Positions 8,207-53,290 of a stretch of 64,000 nt of DNA are shown piece after piece (position 1 is the stretch's first letter; every line of letters begins with the position of its first letter). The notes beneath the pieces were generated by a model. The model worked only from the letters and a program-made list of their open reading frames with translations, was not told the DNA's origin and did not search any database. Both the position numbers and the translations under genes were made by a program. This stretch comes from Verrucomicrobiales bacterium (GTDB lineage: Bacteria > Verrucomicrobiota > Verrucomicrobiia > Verrucomicrobiales > DEV007): NCBI GenBank assembly GCA_029213265.1, contig JARGNG010000001.1:124822-188821 (forward strand). Direction: 5' to 3'.

Positions 8207-8302
8207 GGGAGAAATCGTATCGGGGAGAAGGGGCGAAAGGAAGCCCATACTCCGGATCGAATTTGCCTTGCTTTGGCTCACCGGGTTCGCTCCACTACCC
8301 TC

Positions 8303-19032: not shown

Positions 19033-20731
19033 TGCAGGTGAGATGTCTTTTTATCAACTTCCTGATGGCCGCTTGAACGGCACCCCCGGCCAGTATTAGA
19101 AAGGTTCCGAATCCGAATAGGACAAGCCTTCCTTCTTTTTCGATCAGGCCCAGAAGGATCATCCAGGCTCCGATGACAAGTAGGCTGAACATCACCATTC
19201 GTGCGGCGAAGGGGTCAAACCGGACCGGGGAAGTTACGCTATCTTCCTGACGGGTTTGTTTGGCCTGGTGCTCTTCGATACGCGATGCGCCGTCGTCCTT
19301 TCCCTGTCTTGCCCACTCGAAGAAAATCAGCATGAGAAGAGGTAGGATGACTCCCACGAGGACCTCCACATTTTTGGAATTTTCCAGAAGATAGAGTTGG
19401 GCCGGGTAGAGCGATGAATCCTCAGCGATTGCAGGATTGGTCGCAATCCCGAATCGCAGGGCCAGTCCGATCGTGAAACTTGTCAGGGCAATAACGATCA
19501 TGTCATGAATTCCAATTTTCCGGCTGAAAAGCCCCCACAGGGTGGGTGCGAAGAGGGGAACGACGAGCAGCGAATTGATGGAGATGATCAGCTTTTCGGC
19601 TCCTCCCATTTTCGGAACCATAATGGCTGTAAAGACAAGCAGTCCTCCTAACACAACTGTAAAAATACGACCGATCCTGACAAGCTTCAACTCCGTTGCT
19701 CCCGGGTTGAGAAAGGCCTTGTAGAAGTCGTTTGTAAGAACACCTGCAAAGACATTCAGCTGAGAGCTGACCATGCTCGCGGTGGCGGAAAACATGGCTG
19801 CGAACATGAGTCCGAGTACGCCGGGGGGAAGCACCGACTGTGCCGCGAGAATGTAGGCCTGTTCCTTGTTGACCCCTTCCACCTGCCCCCGGTAGAGCAG
19901 GGGAGGCAGGAGCCAGAAAAGCGGAGTCACCAAATACATGATACCAAACAGCCAGGAGGATTTTTTTGCTTCCCGCGGACTCCGAACTGCGAGAAAGCGC
20001 TGCACGAAGGCCCACTCCGCCCCGATCATGAAAAAGTGAATCGTGACCCAGCCAAAGAGAAAGAACCAGCCGTATTTGCCTGCGACGGGATCGAAAAAAT
20101 GAGCGGGAACAGATTCCGCGTAGGTGGCCATGTCCATTCCCGAGATCATGAGGATGGCCACCATGAAAACGACGACCGTCAGAACAATGAACTGAAGCAC
20201 GTCGGTCATGAGAACGGCCCAGAGACCACCCTGCATCGTATAGAGAACGACTATGGTCCCGAAGAGAATGATCGCCCAGGTGAGATCGATCGGCATCAGG
20301 GCCACTAACAAAATGGCAAGGGCGTAGAGAGAAACGGAAACTCCAAGGATCCGTTTGATCAACATAGTCCACGTGAAGAAATGGAGTCCGGTTGTTCCGA
20401 AGCGGAGTTGCACGAATTCAGCAGGCGTCGAGACGCCGAGTTGGTTCCACTTCCCGGCAACGAAGTAGCCGACCAGAAGCGCGGCGATTCCGTAGCAGGT
20501 ATTGATCGCTACCGCGACGAAACCGAGTTCGTAGGCGATTCCTCCCCAGACTACAAAAGTGCCGGCGGAAAACATCGTCATGAACCCGCTAAGACCGGAC
20601 GCCCACCAGGGAGAGCTCCGCCCGGCCGAGAACATCTCTTTCTGGCTCTTCGTCCTCCGTGCGGAGAAGGTGCTGATCACGAAGATCCCCGCGACATAAA
20701 GAAGGAGAGTGAGGTAGTCGGGGGTGGTCAT
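19022..20731 (-). CDS. Sodium:solute symporter (SSS family)
   Basis: This is a 569-residue inner-membrane transporter with about 14 hydrophobic segments. The N-terminal signature region GLSGFMTMFSAGTFVVWGG matches the sodium-site region of the SSS family, and STPAEFVQLRFGTTGLHF is the usual loop after helix 3. A hydrophilic loop near residues 470-500 (QGKDDGASRIEEHQAKQTRQ) separates the last helices. It overlaps the dehydratase stop by four bases and the kinase start by 11 bases, so it is the operon's importer, probably for the sugar acid that the neighbours degrade. SSS members also carry neutral sugars, so the cargo is an inference. Confidence 0.92.
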   Translation of the reverse strand: MTTPDYLTLLLYVAGIFVISTFSARRTKSQKEMFSAGRSSPWWASGLSGFMTMFSAGTFVVWGGIAYELGFVAVAINTCYGIAALLVGYFVAGKWNQLGVSTPAEFVQLRFGTTGLHFFTWTMLIKRILGVSVSLYALAILLVALMPIDLTWAIILFGTIVVLYTMQGGLWAVLMTDVLQFIVLTVVVFMVAILMISGMDMATYAESVPAHFFDPVAGKYGWFFLFGWVTIHFFMIGAEWAFVQRFLAVRSPREAKKSSWLFGIMYLVTPLFWLLPPLLYRGQVEGVNKEQAYILAAQSVLPPGVLGLMFAAMFSATASMVSSQLNVFAGVLTNDFYKAFLNPGATELKLVRIGRIFTVVLGGLLVFTAIMVPKMGGAEKLIISINSLLVVPLFAPTLWGLFSRKIGIHDMIVIALTSFTIGLALRFGIATNPAIAEDSSLYPAQLYLLENSKNVEVLVGVILPLLMLIFFEWARQGKDDGASRIEEHQAKQTRQEDSVTSPVRFDPFAARMVMFSLLVIGAWMILLGLIEKEGRLVLFGFGTFLILAGGAVQAAIRKLIKRHLTCNES

Positions 20732-21918
20732 GCCGGAATCAGGGTCATGTTCGCCCGCATCGCTTCGGAAGGTTCCACCCCGAGGCCGGCAGAGTTCGCC
20801 ACGAAATAGGATCCCTCTTCACAGCGCATCGCGTCTCCGGTGAAATGACGAAAGGGCTCGAAGATGGAATGCTGGAATTCATGGGCGGTGACGCAGGGTA
20901 GGGCGGCGCTCGCCTGCAGGCTGGCGGCGAGAAAGATGCCGGACCCGATCGTCGCGTGGGGCATCACTTCGAGTCCGTGTTCCATGGCAAGGCGACTGAT
21001 TCGCATGAACTCAGTGATCCCGGTATGCCCCATCTCAGGCTGCACGATGTGACAGGCGTTCCGGCGGATGCGGAGTCGGGCGTCGTAGAAAGTTCGCCAC
21101 TCCTCTCCCACCGCGATTCGCTGCCCCGAGGTTTCCGCTACTCTCGCCAGTGCTTCAATCTCTTCTGTCGGAACGGGTGCTTCGAGGAACCAGGGGCCGT
21201 GAGGTTCCAGTTCTTTGGCGAGGTCGATGGCATTTTGTTCGGTGAGAGACCAGTGGAGATCAATGGCGATCTTCGCCTCTCCGCCAAGCGTATTTCGAAG
21301 GCCGGTAAGTTCTGCGACGCCCCCTTCATCCGCGACCGGAAGAGCAAATTTCACGGCATCAAAACCGCGCTCTTTCCAGGAAGCGGCGAGTTCGCAGCGT
21401 TTTGTCAGGGTGTCTTCGGGAAGGCCGGAAACGTAAGCGGGAATCTTCTCGTGGAGCGTTCCGCCGAGCAGCTCACTGATCGATTGATTCGCGATTTTTC
21501 CGGTGATGTCCCAAAGGGCGATGTCGATTGCAGCAAGAGCGTCGAGGTAGAAACCTCCGGTGTATCCGCGGACTCGCATCAAGTCGTAGAGGTCGTCATG
21601 AATGATTTCGACATCACCCGGATCACGGCCGACTACGAAATCGGTCAGCAGGTCACTGATGATGGATGCGGTCGCCAGGGGAGCGACAAGTCCATAGGTT
21701 TCGCCCCATCCTTCGACGCCATCCGCCGTCCGAAGCCGCACGACAAGAGAGCGGTTTTTCCTGGGGTAGACGGTGCGATTGCCCTTTCGCACAAAATAGC
21801 CGGAGCGATTGACGGATTCCCCTTCGCGGAGTGATCCGAGGTAGGGCGTGTCCTGGCTGAGGTCGACGACGAAAATTTCGACGCTGGCGATCCGGTCCTG
21901 TGATTCGAGCAAGCTCAT
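20728..21918 (-). CDS. Enolase-superfamily acid-sugar dehydratase (MR/MLE type)
   Basis: This 396-residue enzyme of the mandelate racemase/muconate lactonizing family abstracts the proton alpha to a carboxylate. The metal ligands are the Asp of AIDLHW, the Glu of FLEAPVP and the Glu of AVGEEW, with a late His in VMPHATIG. The D-x-H arrangement (Asp-Leu-His) recalls D-galactonate dehydratase, where that His is catalytic. The usual second-strand KxK is reduced to one lysine (AVKFALP). Between a DapA-family aldolase gene and a transporter gene, overlapping each by four bases, it most likely dehydrates a hexonate or deoxyhexonate. Galactonate is a reasonable guess but not proven. Confidence 0.88.
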   Translation of the reverse strand: MSLLESQDRIASVEIFVVDLSQDTPYLGSLREGESVNRSGYFVRKGNRTVYPRKNRSLVVRLRTADGVEGWGETYGLVAPLATASIISDLLTDFVVGRDPGDVEIIHDDLYDLMRVRGYTGGFYLDALAAIDIALWDITGKIANQSISELLGGTLHEKIPAYVSGLPEDTLTKRCELAASWKERGFDAVKFALPVADEGGVAELTGLRNTLGGEAKIAIDLHWSLTEQNAIDLAKELEPHGPWFLEAPVPTEEIEALARVAETSGQRIAVGEEWRTFYDARLRIRRNACHIVQPEMGHTGITEFMRISRLAMEHGLEVMPHATIGSGIFLAASLQASAALPCVTAHEFQHSIFEPFRHFTGDAMRCEEGSYFVANSAGLGVEPSEAMRANMTLIPA

Positions 21919-22832
21919 GGAAAAACAGCCTGAAGATCCGAAAGCATGAGATCAATATCGCGTTGCGTGAATTCGTCCAGTTCAGGAAGCGGGGCGCGCA
22001 CATGAAGCGCGTCGGCGACGCCCCTTCTTTTCAGAAGATACTTGGTAAAGCGCATTCGGTAGACGGCTTGTGAAACGAGCAGGGGCAGGCTCAGTCGATA
22101 CAACTCGCGCGCCCGGGGATGATCGCCGCATTTGTGAGCGTCCCAAATCGCTACGTGAAGATCGGTCAACTCGACCGCAGGCATGGCCCCGAGTGCACCG
22201 CGGTCCAATTCATCGATGATGTAACGCGCTCCGCCTCCCCCAAAGATCGCTTTCAGATGAGGACTGTCAGTCGCGAGAAGGGAAGTGATGGCCGGACCTG
22301 AGGGCAGTGTCTCTTCCTTGATATAGGTAAGGGATTCATTTCCCGTTGCGAGTTCCGCCATGGCGTTCGCATTCAGTCCCGCCCCGATCGGAGAAGGAGC
22401 ATTTTGCAGAATGATTTCTGCGTCGGGCAGGGCGGTTGAGATCTCCGAGAAAAATCTCTGATGAGCCTCCAGATCGTCCCCAAGACCGGCCGGTGCCATG
22501 ATCATGAGGTGGTGGATTCCGTTTGCCTCCGCCTGCTGACCCGCGACGATCACTTCCTCTGCTGTTGCCGCGCTGGCTCCTCCGACGATGGGAACGCGGC
22601 CGTCGACTTCCTTCGCGACGAGAGCGATCAAAGCCCCACGTTCATCGGGAGTTAGAAAATTGTATTCGCTGGCAACTCCGGGAAAGACGACTCCGTGAGC
22701 ACCGGCCTCAAGGGCAAAGCGGACAACAGCGCGTTGAGCATCGAAATCGGGATCATCCTGATCCGTGAACAGAGTGGGTATTACGGGGAAGATTCCTTGA
22801 AGCATCGGGATCGTGATACAGGCAGGAGCCAT
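21915..22832 (-). CDS. DapA-family aldolase (keto-deoxy sugar-acid aldolase candidate)
   Basis: This 305-residue TIM-barrel enzyme belongs to the dihydrodipicolinate synthase/N-acetylneuraminate lyase family. The Schiff-base lysine is in LTYIKEET, and GVVFPGVASEYNFLTPDER replaces the usual GTTGE loop. ILQNAPSPIGAGL is the typical strand with a conserved proline. The ATG at 22832 was chosen; MLQGIFPVIPT at 22805 is an equally possible start closer to the family norm, and the TTG at 22841 is less likely. It is the first gene of the sugar-acid operon. There it probably cleaves the keto-deoxy acid (or its phosphate) to pyruvate and an aldehyde, in place of a DgoA-type aldolase. Confidence 0.88.
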   Translation of the reverse strand: MAPACITIPMLQGIFPVIPTLFTDQDDPDFDAQRAVVRFALEAGAHGVVFPGVASEYNFLTPDERGALIALVAKEVDGRVPIVGGASAATAEEVIVAGQQAEANGIHHLMIMAPAGLGDDLEAHQRFFSEISTALPDAEIILQNAPSPIGAGLNANAMAELATGNESLTYIKEETLPSGPAITSLLATDSPHLKAIFGGGGARYIIDELDRGALGAMPAVELTDLHVAIWDAHKCGDHPRARELYRLSLPLLVSQAVYRMRFTKYLLKRRGVADALHVRAPLPELDEFTQRDIDLMLSDLQAVFP

Positions 22833-22939
22833 TTTCTGCAACTCTCAATCTCGGCCCGGCACCCATCGAAGTTGTGTGAAGCAGCCCCTTCGACCATCTG
22901 GCCGGGTAGGCTGTTGGTGGGGACGGGAGCGTGTCTGAA

Positions 22940-23575
22940 TCAATCTGCTTCCGACCCTTGAAACAGATCGCTTACCATTTCCTCGAGCATTTCAAATCCC
23001 GTCGTGATCTTTTTGAGAAATGAATCCTGATGGCGGACGAGCCGGAAATTTGGATGCCGGGACCAGACGGTCCGCAGTTCGGCATCGAGCTCCGCCGCTT
23101 TGCCGATCGATTCGAGGCGGGCGGGATTTCCGCCTTCGATCGAAAGCCCTCCCACGGCGGCACTTTCAAAGAAAATGACGCCGTCGTAGCGGGCGAGCTC
23201 TTTGTCCATGGTGGTTCTCATTTCCTCAAAGAACTCATTGGGAGGCCCCGGCCAATAGGCAGCCCCATCGAGGGTGCCGCGGTCGCAAAGCAGGATTCGT
23301 CCCGGATATTCAGCAGCCTGAACATCCTCCAGATTCTGCTGCACATGGTAGATTGCCCGTTGCGCGGCATGCACTGCGTATCTCTCTTCGTATCGCGGAA
23401 ATCCGCCCGTGAACATCATCGTGGCGGCTTCCGGAACTACGACAACGCGGTCTCCGATTTCGCGGCGAAACATGTCAGCGGCGGTTGTTTTCCCTCCGCC
23501 CGGCCCCCCGGTGAGTACGATCCGGCAACGATGGTGGTTGTGGTTTGTCGGAAGTGGCATTCCCCATCTTACCAT
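22940..23575 (-). CDS. P-loop ATP/GTP-binding protein (AAA_28-like)
   Basis: This is a cytoplasmic P-loop NTPase of about 211 residues. The Walker A motif is VLTGGPGGGKTTAADMF, and the Walker B-like strand is RILLCDRGTLDGAAYW. GDRVVVVPEAATMMFTGGFP is conserved in the AAA_28 group, whose members resemble nucleoside/thymidylate kinases in fold. Possible starts are 23584 (TTG), 23575 (ATG) and 23560 (ATG, MPLPTNHNHH). It follows the sulfatase gene by about 35 bases and so may be the last gene of the sulfatase transcript, although the link in function is not obvious. Its substrate is unknown. Confidence 0.8.
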   Translation of the reverse strand: MVRWGMPLPTNHNHHRCRIVLTGGPGGGKTTAADMFRREIGDRVVVVPEAATMMFTGGFPRYEERYAVHAAQRAIYHVQQNLEDVQAAEYPGRILLCDRGTLDGAAYWPGPPNEFFEEMRTTMDKELARYDGVIFFESAAVGGLSIEGGNPARLESIGKAAELDAELRTVWSRHPNFRLVRHQDSFLKKITTGFEMLEEMVSDLFQGSEAD

Positions 23576-23610
23576 GAATTTCAAGCCGCAGAAATCCGGG
23601 AATCACTCCC

Positions 23611-25233
23611 TCAATCCGGCTTCAGATACTTGACACCGAGATCATCTGGCAGCGGAGTGACCTGGTTTTCGGCGCCCCATGTTTCCCAGGCCTTGTTCAT
23701 CTCTGCAACGCGCTCGGGATACTTCCCTGCAAGATCATTCATTTCGGTGCGGTCGACGGAGAAGTCGTAGAGTTCCCAGGGTTGGTCATCGAGCGCGACA
23801 AGTTTCCACTTCCCCCGGCGAACGGCGCGGTTGCCCTGGTGTTCAAAAAAGAGAGTGCGTTCTTCGGCCGTGCCGTGGTTGATCTGCTCAATGAGATCAA
23901 CTCCGGGGAGGGAAAGTTTCCCTTCGTAGGTGGCTCCGGCGACTGCTACAGCGGTAGGAAGCAGGTCGATGATGTGAGCCGGTTCGTGATGGATTGAGCC
24001 CGGATCTGCCTGTAAGCCTGCAGGCCAGTGGACGATTCCGGGGGAAGCGATTCCGCCCTCATGATTGAAATGTTTGTACATCCGCCACGGGGTGTTACCG
24101 GCGTTGGCCCATCCCGATCCGACGCTGTGGAAGGTTCCGGGTTCACCCATGGTTTCGATCATCTCGCCCTTGTGGAGGATATTCTGGTTGCTCGATACAA
24201 TATCAAATCCGAAGGGGTCCCACTCGAAGCAGGCTCCATTGTCGGAGGTGAAAACAATGAGTGTGTTCTCCCACTCGCCGGCCGCTTTCAGATCTTCGAC
24301 GATGCGCCCGATTTGCTGATCGAGACGATCAATCATGGCGGCATAGATCGCCATTCGCCGGGCGAGGTCGAGTCGGCGATCCTCCGGTAAAGAGTCCCAG
24401 GCGGGATTGGTTCCCGTTTTGGTTTCGCCGTAGTTTTGCCAGGTCGAGCGGGGACTTAGCAGGGTTGAGTCGGGGATGATACCCTGTTGCTTCATCCGCT
24501 GGAGCCGTTCCTCGCGGAGATTGTCCCAACCGTTGTGATAGCGATCTGCATACCTGGCGATTTCCTTCTTCGGAGCATGCAGAGGAAAATGGGGAGCATG
24601 GTAGGCGAGGTAAAGAAACCAGGGCTTCTCCGGCGTCTCCCGGGCGAGATGGAGAAAGTCGATCGCATGATCGGTTACTGCATCAGTCGCGTAAAATTCG
24701 CCTTCCGGATACTCGCGCATTTTTCGTCCTTCGGGAAAACGGACGAGATGATCGGGATCGAAGAAGCGCTTTGCGCTGACGAGCGTTCCATAGAATTCCT
24801 CGAAGCCGTTCTTCGTCGGATCGGGAGTGCCGAGGTGCCATTTGCCGGAAATGAAGGAGCGGTATCCGGTCGGGGCGAGCGCCTGTCCGATAGTCTGTGC
24901 CTCATCCGAGATCACACCGCGATAACCGGGTCGACCGAGGTCGTTCGTGGTCATGTGGCCAAGCCCGACCCGGTGGGGGTACTGGCCGGAGAGGAGCGCC
25001 GCCCGACTTGGGCAGCAGCGTCCGGTGTTGTAGAATTGTGTCAGGCGAACTCCTCCTTCAGCGAGGGTGTCGAGAACGGGAGTTTCGATTTCCCCTCCGA
25101 AACATCCGAGATCGCTGAAACCGAGGTCGTCAGCGAGAATGTAAAGGATGTTGGGGCGCGGAGCGGACTGTGACTCACCCGGAGATAGCGCGGCACAGAG
25201 AAAGAGCAGAAGGGGGAAAACGTAGCGTGGCAT
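23611..25233 (-). CDS. Secreted sulfatase, CCPSR type
   Basis: This 540-residue type I sulfatase has a signal peptide ending near residue 24 (PLLLFLCAALSPGESQS). Metal-binding NILYILADDLGFSDLG precedes the formylglycine motif at Cys73 (GRCCPSRAALLSG). GKWHLG, LYLAYHAPHFPLHAP and TLIVFTSDNGACFEW are further active-site segments. It is close in pattern to the CCPTR sulfatase at 9431-11602 but lacks its C-terminal sandwich. It overlaps the LamG-like gene upstream by one base (TAATG), so the binding protein and sulfatase are translated together. Confidence 0.94.
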   Translation of the reverse strand: MPRYVFPLLLFLCAALSPGESQSAPRPNILYILADDLGFSDLGCFGGEIETPVLDTLAEGGVRLTQFYNTGRCCPSRAALLSGQYPHRVGLGHMTTNDLGRPGYRGVISDEAQTIGQALAPTGYRSFISGKWHLGTPDPTKNGFEEFYGTLVSAKRFFDPDHLVRFPEGRKMREYPEGEFYATDAVTDHAIDFLHLARETPEKPWFLYLAYHAPHFPLHAPKKEIARYADRYHNGWDNLREERLQRMKQQGIIPDSTLLSPRSTWQNYGETKTGTNPAWDSLPEDRRLDLARRMAIYAAMIDRLDQQIGRIVEDLKAAGEWENTLIVFTSDNGACFEWDPFGFDIVSSNQNILHKGEMIETMGEPGTFHSVGSGWANAGNTPWRMYKHFNHEGGIASPGIVHWPAGLQADPGSIHHEPAHIIDLLPTAVAVAGATYEGKLSLPGVDLIEQINHGTAEERTLFFEHQGNRAVRRGKWKLVALDDQPWELYDFSVDRTEMNDLAGKYPERVAEMNKAWETWGAENQVTPLPDDLGVKYLKPD

Positions 25234-37427: not shown

Positions 37428-40400
37428 TCAAAACTTCTGATCTTCATCCGGCCCTGGATTGGCATACGCGGGATCCTTCGCGCGAATGTGAAGCTCTCCA
37501 TTTTTGAGCGTCTCCACTTCCATTGGTACCAACGTAACTCCCCGCTCGTTGATCGTTTGTGCGGTCACTGAGAGATCTCTCGTCTCGATGCCTTCCCGGG
37601 GAACGGGCGGAATGTTCGCGTTGTAAAAGGCGGTGCACCACCAGCGGTCATCGCTGTCTTGAAAGGGCGTTCCGTGGCCTAGAAATCGACCGGCGAACTT
37701 CCGTTCGCTGTAGGGGCCTTCGATTTTGTCCGCCGTGGCGTAGTAGAGGTTGTAGCTGCCGCGCCTCATCAGGTTCGTCGACCAGCCGGTTCCGAAGAGC
37801 ACGTATTTCCCTTCGATTTTCATGATGAGGCAGCCTTCGTGTCCCATCTTGGAACCAATGTCAGGAGAAGGGGCCGGAGATATCTGGATAGGGGGAGAGG
37901 CGAAACCGGAAAAGTCCGGCTTCAAAGGCGCTATGGAGGTCGCTCCCCAGACCAGATACCAGGTTCCGTCGTCGTCCTGGAAAAGCGAAGGGTCGTGCTT
38001 GCGCCCCAGTTCGGCGCCGAAGGGGTTGCTCCAGGGACCCTTGGGTTCGGGCCCTGCCGAAAGAGACAGGTTCGCTCCCTTGACGGGACCGGGGCTGGTG
38101 TGAGTAAGAGCCCATTTGCCAAGATGATCAATCCAGTGCAGTTCGGGAGCCCAAAGCCTCCACTGGGATCGGTCGTCTCCTGCGTGTGCCTCCGGATTTG
38201 CCTGTGGCCAGATTCCATCGAGAAGGGAGTAGGGAGTTCCGTTTTCCCCATAAGGTTCCCAGTCGATCAGATCTGCGCTCTTCCAGACTTTGGCCTTCCA
38301 CCCGACCAGCGAGGTTTCCCCGAGGCCTGTATTGTAGGGATCGGATTGTTCCCGCTCGTCCCCTGGATTGGGCGCTGTGCCGGTGAGGTAGTAGGTTCCA
38401 TCAGGACCGGTCACGATGTAGGGATCCCGAATCCAATCGTTGGTAACGTGAAAGGCCCGGTCATGGGACGCGAGGGACGAAACGATTGTATCGCGGGGGG
38501 TCGTAGGTGGAACCGGGGCCATCCTGCCTGCGATATCGACTCTCGTTCCTACGATGGTATGGGAGAACGGAAATGGGGATCGGTAGTCGCCCACGGAAGA
38601 ATCCGTTTCGTGGCCGACGGTGAAGGGATCGAGCGGCTCCACGGGAATGAGACCAGGTGATGGTTTTGTCAGGGGTGTTCCTCCATTGATCGAGAGCTTC
38701 ATCTTCTTCGGTCCGAGATCCGCTTCGATTCGATTGGTGCCGGTGATTGGCTCCATCGTCTCAATCCTGGTGCTCTTCCCCTTTGTTCGCACTTCGAACC
38801 GCAGTTTTCCGTCGACGAAATAGAGGCTGTATCCGTTTTGATTTCCACCGTGAGCCACGACGACTCCGTTGGCCTTGTTGTTTTCGCCCCGAATATTCAC
38901 CTCGGCGACGATGTGGATCGGTTTCCCGGCAATCGAGGCTGCCGGGCCCGGCTTCTTTGACGGAGTCGTCTTTTTGTTTCTGCCAACCGCTTCGGGGTAG
39001 CGACTCAAAATTTTTCTCAGTTCGGAAACAACCTTCGGTTTTTCGGTCGCGAGATTCTTTGATTCGAGGGGGGCGGACTCGTAGTCGTAGAGTTCCAGCT
39101 CCGCATTCTCCGGTCTGTCACCCGGCGTTTTCCATTCCACGAGACGGTACTGATCGGTTCGAATGGCTCGTCCAAGCTTTCCTTTCGGATAGGCATGAAA
39201 CGCATGATCGCGAACCCTGGCATCGGGATCCTTGAGCGCGGGAACGAGGGATACCCCGTCGATGGGTTGCGGCCCTTTCGGAGCGGGGAGCCCTGCCAGT
39301 TCTGCCAGGGTCGGGAAAACATCGACACTCTCTGCGAGTTGGCCGGTGGTGGACCCGGCAGTGATTCCCGGTCCGGAGAAGAGAAGGGGAATGCGATTCG
39401 CCTGTTCGTAGTTGGTGTGTTTGGTCCAGATGCCGAGGTCGCCCAGGTGGAAACCGTGATCTCCCCACAAAACCACAATCGTATTTTCGGCGAGACCGAG
39501 ATCCTCCAGTTTTTGTACGACTTTTCCAATCTGGGTGTCGACGTAGCTGGTGCTCGCGTAGTAGCCGTGGATCAATTGAAGTGCGACTTCGTCACTGATT
39601 TCTGCCGGGTCATTTTTGTCGGGAACAGGAAAATAGTTTCGAATCTCCCCACCTCGTTTTCCGGCCACGGGAGGGGAGCCGGCCGGCAGATCCTGATTGG
39701 GTGCCAGTTCAAACTTCTCCGGATCATAGAGGTCCCAGTATTTTTTCGGGGCGGAGAAAGGCAGGTGAGGGCGGGCGAAGCCGGCTGCGATGAAAAAAGG
39801 AGTTCCGTCCTTTTTGAACCGTTCCTTCGCCGCTTCGAGGCGGCGTCCTGTTTCCGCCGCGACTCGCCCGTCAGCATAGGCTTCGTCATCGACGTCAGGG
39901 GATTCAAAGGCGGCACCACGGGGGAGCGTGTTCATCCCGCCGGGAGGGGCCGGGATGTTTTGGAACATCGCTTCTTCGCGGGTAAGCTTACCGTCGGGTT
40001 TCGACTTGGGATCGACGTATTCGATGACCTTCTCTTTGAAATGAGGTACCGAGAATGATTCGGGGTCTCCTTCGTTCCCGTGACCGATGTGAAAAATCTT
40101 CCCGAGAGATTCGGTTCGGTATCCGTGCTTCGCGAAGTGCTGCGGCATTGTCACCGCATTGGGAATGGCCTTTCGCAGTTCGCTTCCGAGTCCATAGAGT
40201 CCGGTCGAAGTCGAGTGTGCGCCTAGCATCAGGGTAAACCGGGATGGCGCGCAGACGGCCTGGTTGCAGTAGGCTTTTTCAAAACGCACTCCTTTCCCAG
40301 CAAGCCGGTCAATATGGGGCGTGATCGCGAGCGGATCGCCGTAGGAACCGAGTGCGGGCTTCAGGTCGTCGACGAGAAGAAGAAGAACATTGGGCTTTTC

Positions 40401-40460
40401 CGAGGCACTTGCGAAAGAGAAGCAGGTGACGAGGAAGAGAAGAATTCGTTTCGCATTCAT
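37428..40460 (-). CDS. Sulfatase / LamG-like / GH43-like fusion protein
   Basis: This is a 1010-residue secreted enzyme starting at the ATG at 40460 (signal MNAKRILLFLVTCFSFASAS). Residues about 22-490 are a complete sulfatase of the iduronate-2-sulfatase-like kind, with NVLLLLVDDLKPALGSYG, Cys70 in AVCAPSRFTLMLG, and VVLWGDHGFHLGDLG. A Lys/Pro-rich linker leads to a beta-sandwich at about 510-645 (GVVVAHGGNQNGYSLYFVDG). From about 665 to 1000 is a five-bladed propeller of GH43/GH117 style, with candidate catalytic Asp in WIRDPYIVTGPDG, Asp in RKHDPSLFQDDDG and Glu in GHEGCLIMKIEGK. Desulfation and glycoside cleavage may occur on the same chain. It is convergent to the isomerase gene. Confidence 0.92.
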   Translation of the reverse strand: MNAKRILLFLVTCFSFASASEKPNVLLLLVDDLKPALGSYGDPLAITPHIDRLAGKGVRFEKAYCNQAVCAPSRFTLMLGAHSTSTGLYGLGSELRKAIPNAVTMPQHFAKHGYRTESLGKIFHIGHGNEGDPESFSVPHFKEKVIEYVDPKSKPDGKLTREEAMFQNIPAPPGGMNTLPRGAAFESPDVDDEAYADGRVAAETGRRLEAAKERFKKDGTPFFIAAGFARPHLPFSAPKKYWDLYDPEKFELAPNQDLPAGSPPVAGKRGGEIRNYFPVPDKNDPAEISDEVALQLIHGYYASTSYVDTQIGKVVQKLEDLGLAENTIVVLWGDHGFHLGDLGIWTKHTNYEQANRIPLLFSGPGITAGSTTGQLAESVDVFPTLAELAGLPAPKGPQPIDGVSLVPALKDPDARVRDHAFHAYPKGKLGRAIRTDQYRLVEWKTPGDRPENAELELYDYESAPLESKNLATEKPKVVSELRKILSRYPEAVGRNKKTTPSKKPGPAASIAGKPIHIVAEVNIRGENNKANGVVVAHGGNQNGYSLYFVDGKLRFEVRTKGKSTRIETMEPITGTNRIEADLGPKKMKLSINGGTPLTKPSPGLIPVEPLDPFTVGHETDSSVGDYRSPFPFSHTIVGTRVDIAGRMAPVPPTTPRDTIVSSLASHDRAFHVTNDWIRDPYIVTGPDGTYYLTGTAPNPGDEREQSDPYNTGLGETSLVGWKAKVWKSADLIDWEPYGENGTPYSLLDGIWPQANPEAHAGDDRSQWRLWAPELHWIDHLGKWALTHTSPGPVKGANLSLSAGPEPKGPWSNPFGAELGRKHDPSLFQDDDGTWYLVWGATSIAPLKPDFSGFASPPIQISPAPSPDIGSKMGHEGCLIMKIEGKYVLFGTGWSTNLMRRGSYNLYYATADKIEGPYSERKFAGRFLGHGTPFQDSDDRWWCTAFYNANIPPVPREGIETRDLSVTAQTINERGVTLVPMEVETLKNGELHIRAKDPAYANPGPDEDQKF

Positions 40461-40578: not shown

Positions 40579-42066
40579 TTACCCCATCCATTGGAGGAGG
40601 AGGCGGCTCCAGACCGAGGTCAATGGGAACGCACAAAGTCCGATCACGGCGCCGGGAAGGATAAAATCCCGGGAGCGGACCTGGCCGCCGGCAAAGGCGA
40701 TCGCATTCGGCGGTGTGGAAATCGGAAGGCACATCGCAGCAGACGCGCTCAGGGCCATCGGGATAGCAAAAGCGGCGGCTTCTTTGGCGCCGGCGAGCGA
40801 TGTGCCTGCCGCGATTCCGATGGGAATGAGAATGTTGGCCGCGGCCGTGTTGCTCATGAAGTTGGAAAGCAGCAGGGTGAGAAGAGAAAACACCATCGCC
40901 ATCGCCCATGGCTGGATGGGGAGCGTGGCCAATTGACTCGCGAGCCAGCTCGCCAGTCCACTTTCGGCGACGCCCACCCCGAGAGAGAGGCCGCCGGCGA
41001 GAAGAATGAGAATGTCCCAGTCGAGCGTCCGGATTTCCTCTGCACGAATGACACCGGTGATGGAGAAAACGACAATCGGAAGGAACGAAACCACCGCTGT
41101 GGGAATTCCGTGCCAGCTTCCGGAAAGCCAGAGCGATACCGTGGCGAGAAAGACGACGAGAACGGTCCATCTTTGCCAACGGGGAAGCAGGCGGGGTTCC
41201 GCGAGACCGGCACCGGACTCGGGGATCGCCTCAGGCCCATCCGAGACATTTCCGCCGAGGTGGAGTTCCGCTCCCCTGACCTTCTTTTGAAGAACAAAAA
41301 AGAGTCCGCCCAGGAGAAGCATCGCAGGAGGAAGGCCGAACAGCATCCACCGGAGAAAGTCGACCTCGTAGACTTCGTTGAGAAGGCCCGAGGCAATCGC
41401 GTTGGGAGGCGTTCCGATAATCGTTCCCATTCCACCCAGGTTTGCGGAGAAAGCGCCGCCGATGGTCAGGGTCCTCGCCGCGCTGGACGATTGCGATGAA
41501 GCGAGCATGGGGCCGAGGATGGCTATCATCATTGCCGCCGTTGCCGTGTTCGAAAGGAACATCGAAAAGACGAAGGTGGTGAGCATTGCAACCAGCAGAA
41601 TGCGCTCGGGTTTCGCTCCGGCGAGTCGAAGAAGCCGGTCTGCGAGATCACGGTCCAATCCGGTTCTCGAAGAGGCACGTGCCAGAATGAATCCCCCGAA
41701 AAAGAGCCACATCGAGGGGCTCGCCCAGGGTTCGACAAATTGCTGCCAACTCTTGCTGTCTCCGTCGACGGCCATGACGCCGCCGGGCGCGCCGAGGATG
41801 ATGATTTGCAATCCGATTCCGAGCAGGGCGACGGCGAACGCCGGGATTGCTTCCGTCATCCAGAGGAGTCCACAGAACGCGACAATGGCAAGGCTCCAGC
41901 GGGCGGACTCCTCGAGGCCCGGATAGTTCGGGAGGAAGGCGGTAAGTGCGGCCGCAAGAAAGCAGAGAATCACTTTCAGGAAGGCGGCTCCGGAGTCGAA
42001 TTCGAGGTGTCCCAGGATCCGTCTGTATTCGGCGCGGGTGTCGGCTCTTGAAATTCGGAATTTCAT
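40579..42066 (-). CDS. DASS-family sodium/anion symporter (SLC13-like)
   Basis: This 495-residue inner-membrane transporter has about 11-12 helices. Both DASS signature repeats are present: FLSNTATAAMM with GTIIGTPPNAIA in the first half, and NFMSNTAAANIL with PISTPPNAIAF in the second. The paired SNT motifs bind the anion and sodium. Family substrates are dicarboxylates, citrate or sulfate, so this could move sulfate released by the neighbouring sulfatases or take up an organic acid. The sulfatase/GH43-like fusion gene starts 118 bases downstream, on the same strand. The gene is divergent from the GNAT gene. Confidence 0.93.
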   Translation of the reverse strand: MKFRISRADTRAEYRRILGHLEFDSGAAFLKVILCFLAAALTAFLPNYPGLEESARWSLAIVAFCGLLWMTEAIPAFAVALLGIGLQIIILGAPGGVMAVDGDSKSWQQFVEPWASPSMWLFFGGFILARASSRTGLDRDLADRLLRLAGAKPERILLVAMLTTFVFSMFLSNTATAAMMIAILGPMLASSQSSSAARTLTIGGAFSANLGGMGTIIGTPPNAIASGLLNEVYEVDFLRWMLFGLPPAMLLLGGLFFVLQKKVRGAELHLGGNVSDGPEAIPESGAGLAEPRLLPRWQRWTVLVVFLATVSLWLSGSWHGIPTAVVSFLPIVVFSITGVIRAEEIRTLDWDILILLAGGLSLGVGVAESGLASWLASQLATLPIQPWAMAMVFSLLTLLLSNFMSNTAAANILIPIGIAAGTSLAGAKEAAAFAIPMALSASAAMCLPISTPPNAIAFAGGQVRSRDFILPGAVIGLCAFPLTSVWSRLLLQWMG

Positions 42067-47117: not shown

Positions 47118-50100
47118 CTACTTCACTTCGATCCGATCTATTCCGACCATGTAGCTGGGCAGCGCTTCCGGATTCTTTCCGGTGATATGGACGTCAATCT
47201 GGAGCGGTTCACTGGGACTGATGTTTACGTTCTCAAATCGAATCGGTTCACCGGGGAGAACAGTTTCCGTGTAGAAGTCCACCTCACGAAGCTGTCCGTT
47301 GATGGCGATTTTCACCTGGGCGTAGTCTTTTGCTGTCGTCGGGAAAAGGACCAGGTTGTGATTGCCGGGTTTGAGACCCTCGAGTTTTAAGGTGAGAATG
47401 TCGCCCGGTTGTGCGCCGGTCCACCAGAGCTGGTGGCTCCCGGACCAGGCCGGGCCGAAGTTGGACATGCCTTGAGGTCTCAGTTGGCCGGACTTTGGCG
47501 CAAAGTTTTCGACAAGCGATTCGGCTTCGATCCGCGTGACTCCCTTTGCCGGGGGAGGGACTTCACTTGCTTGCGAAACCGGCTTCTTTTCTCCAGGCAA
47601 TGGCACCTGTTGGGAGCTTGCCAGATACTTCACGAGGTCGGCGACCTGTTCGATCTTCATCGTGTCGAAAAGGCCGGCAGGCATGAGGGATTGGGCCATC
47701 TGCTGCCGCTCCTTGATCTCAGTGATCTTCACGTCGGTATCGGTGCCGCCGGGCATGGATACGGTGACGAACTCCGGTGTCTCCGCTTTCACCATCCCGC
47801 TGATGGTGGAGCCGTCCTTCATTGTGAAAATGTTCAGCAGGTATTCTCTTCCGACTACGGAACTCGGAGCGAGAACATTCTCCAACAGATAGGCGAGGTC
47901 AGCACGATTGGATCCGGTTAGGTCAGGGCCGAGTGCAATGCCCTCTCCGAAAAGCTGGTGGCAGGTTCCGCAAGTCATGGTGTAGGTCTGTCGGCCGCGG
48001 GAGGCGTCGGCCTTCGCCATGACCTTGGGATTCAATTTCTTTTTCCATTCTTCGATGGCAGCCGTGAGCCCGGCAATGTCGACACCACCGCCTCCACGAA
48101 GCCAGTTTTTATCGATCAGTGCGGTGATCTTCTCATTTTCGAACCGCTCGAACTGGTCGAGCATGACGGGGGAAACAAGTGAGGATTCGAGCTTCTTTCC
48201 ATCAACCGCTTCGAGAAGAGCCAGCGCCATTTCAGGACGGGAGGCGAGGAGGTTGATTGCTTCATTCCGCTGCTTCAGTGGCAAGCCGGGAAGAACCGCC
48301 ACGATTGCGTTGGCGGTCTCGGAACCGGGGTGCCGTCGCAGAGCCGCGATCGCAGCGGGGCGAAGGGGCGCTACCGGCAGAAGTTCACGGGCGAGGGCTC
48401 CAAGTTCGGGGTCGCGTCCGACCGTAAGCAGTTCGAGCGCTTCGATGCGTTGCCCGGGGCCGGTCTTCTCGTTGCGGGCGACCGTTCTCCAATGCGGGAA
48501 AAATTCGGGATCACCAAATCGAGCGCCCATTTTCCGAAGAAGAGTTTCCTGCCCATGACCGGTGCTAAAGGATCGACCCTGTTTCTTTGCTTCCTCCCAG
48601 CCATCCGGCCTCTCAACCGGGGGAAGACTTTCCAAAGCGGTGAGCAGTTGGTTGGCCTGCCCCGTCCAATCCTTCATTTGCGCCTTCGACAGGGAATCCA
48701 TGATGGCGGAACGACCTTCCGGGAAAACTGCGGCACGACGAGTGAGGAAGTCCTTCAGCATGGGCCACGATGTCCGGCTGACCAGTTCGAGCGCCCTGCC
48801 CGGATCGGCTTCGACAAGGGGTGCGATTCCGTACCAGGTCAGGTAGGGAATGTTTCGATCGCGCTCGCTGCGACCGTGCGCAATCAGTCCCCGTGCCAAT
48901 TCCCAGCGTTGCTCCAGGGGCAGTGTCTGCAGCTTCGAGGCGAGATAGCGACGAACGACCAACGACTCTTCGGTCTTCGACATTTCGATGAGGCGGGGGA
49001 GGGTGCCTTCATTGGCAACGGCAATCTGTATGGCCCATCCACGGATGTGTTCATCCGGGTCGGAGAGTGCCGCCATCAAATGCTTTTCGTCGACCGTTCC
49101 CGTGACGTGACGAGTCCAGAGCGCCCGGAGCCGAAAGGGAGTCTCACGGGAGTGTTCATTTTCAAACTCTGTCAGGGCGGCTGCGACGGCTTTGTGGTCG
49201 AGAGAGACGACCGCGGCGCGCTCTTGAAGAAGGCGTTGCGCCTGCCGAGCGTGAAAGGTGTTTTCTGATGCTAACAAAGCCACGAGAGCCTCATCGTCGC
49301 GCTCCGGCAGATCCAGCGCCGTCGTTTTGGCATCGCCATGACGAACCCGGAAGATGCGTCCGTTGCTTCGGTCCCAGGCTTCGACATCGCGGTGGTGGCA
49401 GGTTTGCCCGTCGACCCAATCGGAATAGTAGAGCGCCCCGTCGGGTCCCTGCATGACTCCCACTCCGACGGTGTCATGATTATTTGTCAGGAGGAAATCC
49501 GGACGGTGCCTCGCGAGGTAGCCCGATCCGTCGACGCCGAGGTCCTCCCGCACGATGCGGTGTCCGTGCAGGTTGTGGAAATACATCTGCCGGCGATAGG
49601 AGGCAGGAAATTCCGGGGCATCGTAGTAGACCAGCCCGCAGTGGGCATGGCCGCCGCCGACCGTGTTGGTGAAATTAATTTCCTCTTCCGGCTCGTCCCC
49701 TTTGTTTCCCCTCCACTCGGTCCAGAGGATCCTCATGTTGCCGGTGTAGTGACTGTGATCCGCAATCGTCTTGATGTCATCAAAGGTGAAGGGATCGAAA
49801 TGCTGACCGGCCTGTCGGAAATATCGACCACCATGGCTCAAGTGATAGAAATGGGGAATGACGCAGGCGCTGACGAAGAAGTCCCCGTATTCGTTGAAGT
49901 CGACGCCCCAGGGATTGCTCGTTCCGTGGGCGTAGACCTCAAACTCTTTGGAGACAGGATGAAAGCGCCACACCCCCGCATTGATGGGGATACGCTGTTC
50001 ATCCGGTGTGCCCGGCTTCCCGACTTTGGAATGGGTAAAGACGCCATGGCAGCCGTAGAGCCAGCCGTCGGGTCCCCAGGTGAATGCATTCAGCGTTTCG

Positions 50101-51746
50101 TGAGTATCCTGCCAGCCCCAGCCATCGAGAAGAATCTCGGGTTCGCCGTCGGGTTGGTCGTTTTGATCTTTGTCAGGATAGAAAAGGAGGTAGGGCGCGG
50201 CGCCGACGTAGACACCTCCGAATCCGATTTCGATTCCGCTGGCGAGATTGATGTTCTCGGCGAAGACCTTGCGGGTTTCGAAGCTGCCGTTGGAATCAGC
50301 GTCTTCAAAAATGAGGATGCGGTCTTTCCCCTCGTTGAAGTTACCCTCGTCCCGCACCGGATAGGTATGACCTTCGATCACCCAGATGCGGCCGCGCGCA
50401 TCGAAGGTCATGGCAATGGGCTGAGTCAGGACGGGTTCGGCCGCGATGAGATCGATCGTGAATCCGTCGGGAGGCGAAGCCTGCTCGCGTGCCTCTTCCG
50501 GGGAGAGATTGTTTTTGTACTGATCCTGCGGCAGGTGTTCTCCGTGACTCCATTTCGGCAGTGCTGATATCTTGCCACCGGCGATTCGCGTATGAACGAG
50601 GAGGCCCTTTTTGCTGCTGGTGACAATGTCAGGCTTTTGATCGCCGTCGAGATCGGTTACCTTCACCTCGACGCCCACCCCGGAATCATGGTCAACAAGA
50701 TGCGGAACCCAATCAATGGCACCGTCCTTTTCCGTATTCCGAAACCAGTAGAGAACCGCTTCCTGGAGTCCGCCCGGGTCACGACCCTGGTGGGCAAAGT
50801 AGCGTTTGCCGGTGACAAAATCATTTCGCCCGTCGCCATCCATGTCGGCGAGGGCAAGCGCGTGAGGTTGAGAAAACGCGACGCCGTAGGGATTTTCAGT
50901 CGAGCTTTCCCCGACGATGTTGTGTCGGGAGAACTTGCCGGGAGCGTGCTGCTTGAACCAGGCGATGCCGTAGCCGTGCGCATTGAGAGAAGTGATGATG
51001 TCGTTGTCACCATCCTGATCGAGATCATCGATCAGGATTTGGGAACCGCCACCGCCGTAGGGGATCAGTGCCCACTTGTGTTTTTTCCAGGGGCCGGCGG
51101 AGCCGTCTTCGGGTTGCTCATACCAGTGCATCTTCTCGATGACATCGGCACGGCCGTCACCGTTGATGTCCCCAACGCCCAGTCCGTGACCAAAGGGGGT
51201 AGCCGCTTCGCCGGTTGGCGAGATCGCGTGCCAGGTCCAGGGCTTTGTCGCATCGTCGCTGGCTTCGAAGTAGCCGTAGGCTTTCTCCCTCGCACAGACA
51301 ATTTCGGGATGCCCTCCGGGAATGAGGTCGACAAGGTGAGGGGATTCGTTCGCGACTTGATCAGCCACTTCGACCATTTCCCATCGCTCTTGATCGCTGT
51401 TCAGATAGAGGCGGGCGGATTTTCCGGGGAAGCCGAAAACAAGTATGTCGTTCTTTCCGTCTGCGTTGAAGTCCCTGACAAAGCTGAAAAAATTGTCGGA
51501 GTAACCGCTTCCTCCATCGAAGGGTTCACCGTCAGCGAAGCGCGTCTGCTTTTGAAAATCCGGACCGGCGAACCAGAAGGGGCCATAAGTAATGTCGACC
51601 TTGCCGTCTCCGTTGAGATCTCCCACTCCGGCTCCTTCGGCATAGAAGTCAGACAGCAGGGATGTCGTTTTCCATTGGTCTGCGGCCACGGTGGAGATCA
51701 CCAGAGGTAGGGTTGCCAGGAGGAAGAATTTCCGGGAGGTAGGCAT
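47118..51746 (-). CDS. FG-GAP / bound-dehydrogenase / HEAT / cytochrome c giant protein
   Basis: This 1542-residue secreted protein starts at the ATG at 51746, overlapping the stop of the upstream sulfatase gene by one base (TGATG); the signal is MPTSRKFFLLATLPLVISTV. Residues about 20-410 are FG-GAP/VCBS repeats with Ca-type loops (DLNGDGKVDI, DINGDGRADV, DQDGDNDI, DMDGDGRNDF). A bound-dehydrogenase propeller follows (GFTIDLIAAEPVLTQPIAM), then HEAT-like helices, a cytochrome with CGTCH and QSLMPAGL, and a C-terminal sandwich (ITRIEAESLVENF-type start) resembling a CBM. It is the last gene of the operon. Confidence 0.9.
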   Translation of the reverse strand: MPTSRKFFLLATLPLVISTVAADQWKTTSLLSDFYAEGAGVGDLNGDGKVDITYGPFWFAGPDFQKQTRFADGEPFDGGSGYSDNFFSFVRDFNADGKNDILVFGFPGKSARLYLNSDQERWEMVEVADQVANESPHLVDLIPGGHPEIVCAREKAYGYFEASDDATKPWTWHAISPTGEAATPFGHGLGVGDINGDGRADVIEKMHWYEQPEDGSAGPWKKHKWALIPYGGGGSQILIDDLDQDGDNDIITSLNAHGYGIAWFKQHAPGKFSRHNIVGESSTENPYGVAFSQPHALALADMDGDGRNDFVTGKRYFAHQGRDPGGLQEAVLYWFRNTEKDGAIDWVPHLVDHDSGVGVEVKVTDLDGDQKPDIVTSSKKGLLVHTRIAGGKISALPKWSHGEHLPQDQYKNNLSPEEAREQASPPDGFTIDLIAAEPVLTQPIAMTFDARGRIWVIEGHTYPVRDEGNFNEGKDRILIFEDADSNGSFETRKVFAENINLASGIEIGFGGVYVGAAPYLLFYPDKDQNDQPDGEPEILLDGWGWQDTHETLNAFTWGPDGWLYGCHGVFTHSKVGKPGTPDEQRIPINAGVWRFHPVSKEFEVYAHGTSNPWGVDFNEYGDFFVSACVIPHFYHLSHGGRYFRQAGQHFDPFTFDDIKTIADHSHYTGNMRILWTEWRGNKGDEPEEEINFTNTVGGGHAHCGLVYYDAPEFPASYRRQMYFHNLHGHRIVREDLGVDGSGYLARHRPDFLLTNNHDTVGVGVMQGPDGALYYSDWVDGQTCHHRDVEAWDRSNGRIFRVRHGDAKTTALDLPERDDEALVALLASENTFHARQAQRLLQERAAVVSLDHKAVAAALTEFENEHSRETPFRLRALWTRHVTGTVDEKHLMAALSDPDEHIRGWAIQIAVANEGTLPRLIEMSKTEESLVVRRYLASKLQTLPLEQRWELARGLIAHGRSERDRNIPYLTWYGIAPLVEADPGRALELVSRTSWPMLKDFLTRRAAVFPEGRSAIMDSLSKAQMKDWTGQANQLLTALESLPPVERPDGWEEAKKQGRSFSTGHGQETLLRKMGARFGDPEFFPHWRTVARNEKTGPGQRIEALELLTVGRDPELGALARELLPVAPLRPAAIAALRRHPGSETANAIVAVLPGLPLKQRNEAINLLASRPEMALALLEAVDGKKLESSLVSPVMLDQFERFENEKITALIDKNWLRGGGGVDIAGLTAAIEEWKKKLNPKVMAKADASRGRQTYTMTCGTCHQLFGEGIALGPDLTGSNRADLAYLLENVLAPSSVVGREYLLNIFTMKDGSTISGMVKAETPEFVTVSMPGGTDTDVKITEIKERQQMAQSLMPAGLFDTMKIEQVADLVKYLASSQQVPLPGEKKPVSQASEVPPPAKGVTRIEAESLVENFAPKSGQLRPQGMSNFGPAWSGSHQLWWTGAQPGDILTLKLEGLKPGNHNLVLFPTTAKDYAQVKIAINGQLREVDFYTETVLPGEPIRFENVNISPSEPLQIDVHITGKNPEALPSYMVGIDRIEVK

Positions 51747-53290
51747 CACTGTTTTCTGGTTGGCATCGAAGCTCCGGTGTTCTCCCTCCATTGGCGGAGC
51801 GCGGTAAGGAGTTCCCGGGTCTTTTCAGGATATTCTTTGCTGAGATCCCGATTCTCACTGGGATCTTCTTTCAGGTTGAAGAGCTGGACAGATCCGTTTT
51901 CAAAATACTCAATCAATTTAAAGTCTCCGTCGCGAACCGCCCCGCCGGGACTTTGCATGCCATGGTTGCTGTAGTGGGGGAAGTGCCAGAACAGAGGGCC
52001 GCGTTCAAATGACTTCTTCTCCATCAAGTGTACTAAACTGACTCCGTCGATTTCGGTGCCGGGACGCTTGCTGATGCCCACTGCTTCCAGGACTGTCGGA
52101 AAATAGTCCGTTCCGGTGACGGGTTCGTCGCAGGTCGTTCCTGCGGCCACTCTGCCCGGCCACTTGATGATTGCGGGCACGCGAATGCCACCCTCATAGA
52201 GCCACCCTTTGGCCCCGCGGAGGGGGAGGTTGGAGGTGGAAAAGGCACGATCCAATTTGTCTTTTGCGACGACACGCTTGGGATTTCCGAAATTACCTCC
52301 CGACATGCCACCATTGTCGGAAGTGAAGATGACGAGGGTATTTTTTGTCAGATTGAGTTCCTCCAGTTTTGCCACGACCCGTCCGAGGCTTTCATCCATC
52401 GCCTCGACCATGGCCGCAAACTGTGGATTGTCCTGGTGTTGCTTGATTTTCACGGTCCGGTTCGGGAGTACCTTGAAGCCTGAATGGGAGGGCCTATTGA
52501 GCAATTGATCCAGTTCGTCGCGTGTCAGGGGATCTGGATCGTCGGGGTTTCCTTCGAGGATGAACCCGGGTCCTTCGGGTGGTTCGATTTGAGCGAGCCT
52601 GTCTTCGTATTTTTTGACAAGGTCGGGGCGTCCATCGATTGGATCGTGCACAGCGAAATGACTCAGGTAAAGAAAAAAGGGCTCGTCCCTGCTCTCTTCG
52701 ATAAAACCGAGTGCCTCGTCGGTGAGACGGTCGGTGAGGTAGTCTCCCGGTTCCCCGGGGAGGCCTTCGAGCTGGAACGGCGCATGGTATCCGGCCTTCG
52801 GCCACCCTTTGAACCAGTTTTGAGGCACCATGAGGTCGAAGCCCTGCTGCATAGGGCCGGCAGGATTCTCTCCGAGGTGCCATTTTCCAAAGTGCCCTGT
52901 CGCATAGCCGTGGGCCTTGAGAATTTCAGCGAGGGTGGATTCCTCCAGCGGCAGGGCCGGTCTGTTCTCCGGCTGCCGGAGACTCTGAAAGGGAAAATCC
53001 TTCCGGCCGCTGATCCAGTCGGTCAGGTGAAGGCGGGCCGGATATTTCCCGGTAAGAATCGAGGCCCGGGAGGGAGAGCAGACGTGGCAGGTTGCGTAGG
53101 CATCGGTGAAGCGGACGCCCTCCGCCGCAAGAGCGTCAATATGAGGGGTGTCGTAGAAAGTGCTCCCGTAGCAGCCGACATCGCTCCACCCGAGATCGTC
53201 GACGAGGAAGAAGACGATGTTGGGTGATTTCGCCCCGGCGATGCCGCAGAAAAACAGGGTGAGGCAGGTAAGTGAGATTCGGCTCATCAT
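51746..53290 (-). CDS. Secreted sulfatase, CSPSR type
   Basis: This 514-residue type I sulfatase has a signal MMSRISLTCLTLFFCGIAGA; the start could be 53290 or 53287, since ATGATG spans both. Metal segment NIVFFLVDDLGWSDVGCYG and formylglycine Cys71 (HVCSPSRASILTG) are canonical, with GKYPARLHLTDWI, GKWHLGENP and LVIFTSDNGGMSGG downstream. It overlaps the previous sulfatase by four bases (ATGA) and the giant gene by one, so it is expressed strictly with both. Confidence 0.95.
   Translation of the reverse strand: MMSRISLTCLTLFFCGIAGAKSPNIVFFLVDDLGWSDVGCYGSTFYDTPHIDALAAEGVRFTDAYATCHVCSPSRASILTGKYPARLHLTDWISGRKDFPFQSLRQPENRPALPLEESTLAEILKAHGYATGHFGKWHLGENPAGPMQQGFDLMVPQNWFKGWPKAGYHAPFQLEGLPGEPGDYLTDRLTDEALGFIEESRDEPFFLYLSHFAVHDPIDGRPDLVKKYEDRLAQIEPPEGPGFILEGNPDDPDPLTRDELDQLLNRPSHSGFKVLPNRTVKIKQHQDNPQFAAMVEAMDESLGRVVAKLEELNLTKNTLVIFTSDNGGMSGGNFGNPKRVVAKDKLDRAFSTSNLPLRGAKGWLYEGGIRVPAIIKWPGRVAAGTTCDEPVTGTDYFPTVLEAVGISKRPGTEIDGVSLVHLMEKKSFERGPLFWHFPHYSNHGMQSPGGAVRDGDFKLIEYFENGSVQLFNLKEDPSENRDLSKEYPEKTRELLTALRQWRENTGASMPTRKQ

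Follow-up and report, generated by a model that had tools for sequence, protein, structure and literature searches.

A predicted secreted chain of a Verrucomicrobiales bacterium that joins an S1_7-type sulfatase to a GH43-type propeller

Does a single secreted polypeptide of a Verrucomicrobiales bacterium carry two complete enzymes, a sulfatase and a glycosidase, and would the two act on the same polysaccharide? The question arises from an open reading frame on the minus strand of the window (the whole stretch of DNA analysed, 64,000 nucleotides), which runs from an ATG at 40460 to a stop at 37428 and encodes a product of 1010 residues. The original prediction read this gene (37428..40460) as a sulfatase joined through a LamG-like sandwich to a GH43-type propeller. 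Its coordinates and the four motifs that it named (CAPSR, WIRDPY, KHDPSLF and GHEGC) proved correct, and so did its domain calls: Pfam accepts both enzymes, the order along the chain being Sulfatase, SGSH_C and Glyco_hydro_43, and the layout is conserved in fused orthologs. Read by eye, the N-terminus, MNAKRILLFLVTCFSFASASEKPN, has the basic n-region, hydrophobic core and AxA site of a Sec-type signal peptide (residues 1-19, MNAKRILLFLVTCFSFASA; 40404..40460, minus strand) with cleavage between ASA and SEKPN, and the chain is a predicted secreted protein.

The N-terminal half is an S1 sulfatase module (residues 23-485; 39006..40394, minus strand) recognized by Pfam PF00884 (Sulfatase, residues 23-390, E 7.7e-43) and PF16347 (SGSH_C, residues 340-485, E 6.4e-13). 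Judged by sequence and conservation, Cys70 of the CAPSR motif (residues 70-74; 40239..40253, minus strand) is the predicted formylglycine precursor; Cys70, Ser73 and Arg74 are invariant in the 13 orthologs compared and also in a set of 22, and one ortholog (L032) has CTASR in place of CAPSR. Ten residues (D31, D32, C70, R74, K121, H124, H232, D334, H335 and K347) are invariant in 13 of 13 fused orthologs and align with the active site of human iduronate-2-sulfatase (IDS; 5FQL), which comprises its metal, sulfate and formylglycine positions. The module is in this respect the full sulfatase that had been proposed, and the genome of the window encodes a homologue of the formylglycine-generating enzyme (FGE; E 1.2e-80). 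The best solved relatives are 6HHM (P18_S1_7; E 9.4e-91) and IDS (E 1.6e-63), which have been assigned to S1_7 (PMC9096561 and PMC5066984, respectively), and by these nearest structures the sulfatase half is closest to the S1_7 type. It shares its active-site residues with both; unlike the fused chain, however, both are single-enzyme proteins, and their substrates, xylose-2-sulfate for P18_S1_7 and iduronate-2-sulfate for IDS, are not transferable because the sequence similarity is moderate.

The C-terminal half (residues 671-1010; 37431..38450, minus strand) is assigned to a five-bladed GH43 propeller by Pfam, an AlphaFold2 model and fold matches. PF04616 (Glyco_hydro_43) covers residues 706-943 with an E value of 5.8e-17 and 62.4 bits against a curated cut-off of 32.2, and the propeller model, built from 53 relatives, has a mean pLDDT of 93.4 and a pTM of 0.92. 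Among the 50 VIA-align matches listed (Z 21.4-24.5), nearly all are GH43 xylosidases, arabinofuranosidases, arabinanases and galactanases, and one is a levan fructotransferase with a related fold; the GH43 structures superimpose with Z up to 24.5, at ∼3 Å over 254-271 residues. GH117 structures were absent from the sequence matches and from the fold matches listed.

The predicted catalytic triad comprises D679 in WIRDPY as the base (38424..38426), D823 in KHDPSLF as the pKa modulator (37992..37994) and E875 in GHEGC as the acid (37836..37838; all minus strand). Aspartate occupies the first position in 51 of the 52 relatives that cover it, the other two residues are kept in 53 of 53, and the histidine of the GHG motif, H929, in 52 of 53. 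A profile alignment places HDPSLF on DPSLF and HEGC on EGP of the GH43 xylosidase 1yrz, E875 aligning also with the EGP glutamate of 3kst. The fold matches include the GsXynB3 catalytic mutants D15G, D128G and E187G; the structural alignment pairs residue 7 of the GsXynB3 chain with residue 1 of the model, and from this alignment range D679, which is model residue 9, would sit at Asp15 of GsXynB3, provided that the stretch is ungapped. Alignment of the acidic residues with other than catalytic positions, which would have spoken against a GH43 enzyme, was looked for and did not occur; the Asp of HDPSLF and the Glu of HEGC lie where the original prediction had put them. The most divergent relative, L093, has asparagine at the positions of both D679 and H929 and is perhaps a non-catalytic branch. 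The solved relatives listed for the propeller reach at most ∼24% identity: BlXynB (6MS2), the arabinofuranosidase 3QEE, GsXynB3 (2EXH) and CtGH43 (5A8C) share its fold and catalytic triad, but all lie outside the GH43 clade of the fused protein. By family precedent the propeller would be an inverting glycosidase.

Between the two enzymes, residues ∼515-645 (38526..38918, minus strand) fold as a LamG/ConA-like β-sandwich in the full-length AlphaFold2 model. The Laminin_G similarity of the window protein is weak (E 0.11, below the Pfam cut-off), as are the matches in orthologs, of which only L050 reaches the cut-off (24.1 bits versus 24). Mean identity among orthologs is 42% for the sandwich versus 77% for the sulfatase and 70% for the propeller, a fast divergence that would suit a spacer or a binding module. 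The relative orientation of the domains is not predicted, since the full-length model has a pTM of 0.49.

Among 33 genomes of the same genus, the propeller is present in 15 and is joined to the sulfatase wherever both are readable, two or three of the 15 fused copies being broken by contig ends. The fused form is also found in ∼24 other named loci from Verrucomicrobia and Planctomycetes, including three isolates (Rhodopirellula baltica BR-MGV, Stieleria tagensis and Roseiconus nitratireducens). The assembly of the window genome is a draft of 182 contigs, in which two adjacent genes could have been joined by a prediction or assembly error; yet the same open frame recurs in all these loci, and because the layout is repeated across the genus and in loci of at least two phyla, we give an artefact practically no credence. 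Unfused forms exist as well. Several other same-genus genomes have an ortholog of the sulfatase without the propeller, and the Acidobacteria tested have the propeller but not that sulfatase; neither half, therefore, strictly needs the other. Distant GH43-like proteins of another architecture, without a sulfatase and 33-34% identical to the propeller, are encoded by 632-residue open frames in two same-genus genomes (L018 and L020), and, beyond the 15 genomes with the propeller, the same-genus genome G007 has only a divergent GH43-like protein of 632 residues, likewise without a sulfatase.

The propeller family as a whole comprises 63 loci in Verrucomicrobia, Planctomycetes, Bacteroidota and Acidobacteria (GTDB contigs). 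Its commonest fused architecture is sulfatase-LamG-propeller; variants are sulfatase-LamG-barrel-propeller (L051, L054 and L059), sulfatase-LamG-propeller-barrel (L022/L038) and sulfatase-sulfatase-LamG-propeller (L037), and several Bacteroidota loci as well as L056 encode a barrel-propeller protein with the sulfatase nearby. The barrel is GH-A/GH5-like (PF00150, E 8.6e-9 in L059) and flanks the propeller on either side depending on the lineage (L022:752-1960, minus strand; L059; L066). In L022 its glutamate motifs read NEP and TEW, the closest solved relative being an endo-β-mannanase (6.8e-5). A search of the window genome, run without a positive control, returned no homologue of this barrel at 1e-5. 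In quick trees calculated without bootstrap, the fused propellers lie near one clade (3 changes versus 20 in shuffles) and the fused sulfatases need 9 changes, mainly from unfused copies nested among them. These nested copies suggest that the propeller was lost after fusion; one of them (L129) is truncated by a contig end and carries no weight in this. The sulfatase of L057 groups with planctomycete single copies, possibly reflecting a second fusion event.

In eight unfused loci the orthologous sulfatase is encoded by a separate gene no more than 8 kb from the propeller, an arrangement seen in Bacteroidota; three of these loci (L066, L067 and L069) are near-identical clusters and count as one. 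The linked ortholog scores 531-611 bits, versus at most ∼250 for the other sulfatases of these loci. It is the only match at an E value of 1e-120 or better in seven of the eight genomes, and the eighth has two copies, the better of which adjoins the propeller. For genomes of 2.6-7.8 Mb, the chance that a single copy falls within such a 17-kb stretch is below 1% per genome. The genomes tested for 14 other unfused loci divide evenly, with a sulfatase match at 1e-120 in seven (that of L065 included) and none in seven. Together, the ∼24 fused and eight unfused adjacent loci form a Rosetta-stone linkage pattern.

The locus of the closest relative, L021, holds four further sulfatase genes beside the fused one, encoding sulfatase-GH127, sulfatase-sulfatase-GH43, sulfatase-GH2 and sulfatase-LamG proteins. 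Domains of this locus match separate genes of a Draconibacterium cluster (S1_7-type sulfatase 56%, propeller 65%, GH2-linked sulfatase 52%, GH2 47% and another sulfatase 48%), but neither the GH127 domain nor the second GH43 has a match in that cluster. A matching GH2 is fused to the S1_7-type sulfatase in the planctomycete G064 (L131), and the window genome encodes a sulfatase-GH2 chain (72% and 66%) on another contig, together with further double or mixed sulfatase chains. We read this as a probable polysaccharide-degradation cluster, which consists of separate genes in Bacteroidota and may have been partly collapsed into multi-enzyme chains in Verrucomicrobia and Planctomycetes. In a wider version, PVC bacteria would have merged part of a conserved Bacteroidota locus for a sulfated polysaccharide into chains (S1_7-LamG-GH43, alone or extended by the GH-A type barrel; sulfatase-GH2; sulfatase-sulfatase-GH43; and sulfatase-GH127) that take one polysaccharide from desulfation to cleavage and replace SusCD-type co-localization, with a GH43 clade whose activity needs freshly desulfated sugar; taken as a whole, this is speculative and rather unlikely. 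The chains of the window genome include the sulfatase-GH2 protein of 1265 residues (L101:2783-6577), a sulfatase-SASA esterase-BNR sialidase type protein of 1734 residues (L099:4453-9654), a sulfatase-acetyl xylan esterase-like protein (L106:317-3538) and four double sulfatases (L100:1451-5284, L102:5359-8868, L104:2307-5168 and L105:1445-4204).

In the Draconibacterium cluster, SusCD pairs and roughly a dozen sulfatases lie together with a GH2, two GH43 and a GH30-type gene; the genes scanned included no polysaccharide lyase. This content would favour a sulfated arabinogalactan, galactan or xylan as the substrate over ulvan. Ulvan, the choice by nearest structure (6HHM), was rejected in view of the moderate similarity, the lack of a lyase in the genes scanned and the polyspecificity of S1_7, which includes xylose-2S, iduronate-2S and carrageenan Gal-4S (PMC9096561, PMC5066984). 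Near the closest fused ortholog, the sulfatase joined to a GH127-type β-L-arabinofuranosidase domain (L021:1011-4499) gives a hint of an arabinose-containing substrate.

Directly upstream of the fused gene and on the same strand lies a DASS/SLC13-type anion symporter (40579..42066, minus strand; TIGR00785 2.3e-80, PF00939 2.5e-46). The 118-bp gap between them has no terminator-like site, and the two genes are possibly co-transcribed. As none of the neighbours of the fused gene, the symporter included, is conserved in same-genus genomes, synteny provides no operon argument. Several other sulfatases are encoded elsewhere in the window, as is, at 18139-22841, a run of genes for sugar-acid catabolism. 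This run belongs to a minus-strand cluster at 18139-25233 (2-keto-3-deoxy-galactonokinase, SSF symporter, enolase-superfamily dehydratase, DHDPS-family aldolase and sulfatase) that resembles a pathway for galactonate or another sugar acid, tied to desulfation. Further features are two giant proteins with DUF7133 and cytochrome c (3551-8281 and 47118-51791; 1576 and 1557 residues), to which a ceramidase-like plus HEAT part or FG-GAP repeats are added, and a PSCyt1/PSCyt2/PSD1 protein at 14056-16551.

Because both active sites are complete and relatives keep the pair fused or adjacent, the sulfatase and the GH43 propeller very likely cooperate on one sulfated polysaccharide. We infer both activities, their order and the substrate from family active sites and genomic linkage. 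In the reading that we favour, with a probability of about 0.72, the chain would be a secreted pair of enzymes for one sulfated polysaccharide in which sulfate removal precedes GH43 cleavage. FGE would convert Cys70 of the S1_7-type sulfatase to formylglycine; the matured sulfatase would hydrolyse a sulfate ester on the glycan and unmask a site; the LamG-like sandwich would serve as a spacer or glycan-binding module; and the GH43 domain would cleave a nearby pentosyl or galactosyl linkage that had been blocked or flanked by the sulfate. On this view the fusion would belong to a polysaccharide utilization locus that Bacteroidota encode as separate genes, some of which are joined in Verrucomicrobia and Planctomycetes.

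A rival reading concerns the order of action. The GH43 domain could act before the sulfatase or at another place on the same polymer, for instance by trimming unsulfated pentose or galactose branches for an endo-acting sulfatase, the fusion merely co-delivering enzymes of one pathway. Such an order would suit the endo-action of P18_S1_7, the closest solved sulfatase, on ulvan (PMC9096561), the several lineages that keep the sulfatase while the propeller is lost or absent, and the planctomycete that fuses the sulfatase to GH2 instead (L131). It is a possibility of some weight, but the S1_7-type sulfatase pairs with the propeller both as a fusion and as an adjacent gene, which is more specific than mere co-membership of a pathway, and we hold the odds to be against it. 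That one half is non-catalytic, with the propeller binding glycan and the sulfatase as the sole enzyme, appears far less probable. Catalytically dead glycosidase-fold modules exist and the neighbouring LamG-like domain is typically a binding fold; against this, nearly all 53 relatives, fused or not, retain the whole triad and the GHG histidine, and other bacteria have the propeller by itself or linked to the GH-A type barrel. The sulfate-first pair of enzymes remains our preferred reading. It would tie an uncharacterized GH43 clade to one specific sulfatase across several phyla and so limit the candidates for its substrate, and the correspondence of single domains in fused PVC chains with separate Bacteroidota genes offers a means of predicting which of the numerous sulfatases of such genomes act together. 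The S1_7-LamG-GH43 chain also offers a direct way to ask why fusions of sulfatase and glycosidase arose in PVC bacteria.

Chains of this general kind have precedents, although our search of the available literature found no characterized sulfatase-GH43 chain, S1_7-GH43 included. P36 from the ulvan locus of Formosa agariphila joins an S1_25 sulfatase to a GH78 rhamnosidase, and its domains act in consecutive steps (PMC8511951). Like P36, the window protein carries an S1 sulfatase and a glycosidase, both with complete family active sites as judged by sequence, conservation and alignment, on one chain; consecutive action on the same oligosaccharide has been shown experimentally for P36, and sulfate removal followed by glycoside cleavage is plausible by analogy here. 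P36 differs in its sulfatase subfamily and GH family, and a LamG-like spacer is not described in the accessible part of that report (PMC8511951). In Kiritimatiellales, S1_7 is fused to GH10 or GH32 (PDESU_06089, SCARR_04194 and SCARR_04167; PMC6388578). These proteins likewise pair an S1_7 sulfatase with a glycosidase in PVC bacteria, but with GH10 or GH32 instead of GH43, and they are reported as annotations only. The GH32-annotated fusion might be a similar propeller. Multi-domain sulfatases with GH43/GH117 matches, for which gene fusion was proposed, were described in 2016 from Porphyra-associated Planctomycetes (PMC4807772). They too combine a sulfatase and GH43-type matches within single proteins, and the GH43 matches were taken as distant relatedness; the S1_7-LamG-GH43 family, its active site and its unfused counterparts are not described in the accessible part of that paper. 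The sulfatase-glycosidase fusion is already known as a type, and the S1_7-LamG-GH43 chain adds another to it.
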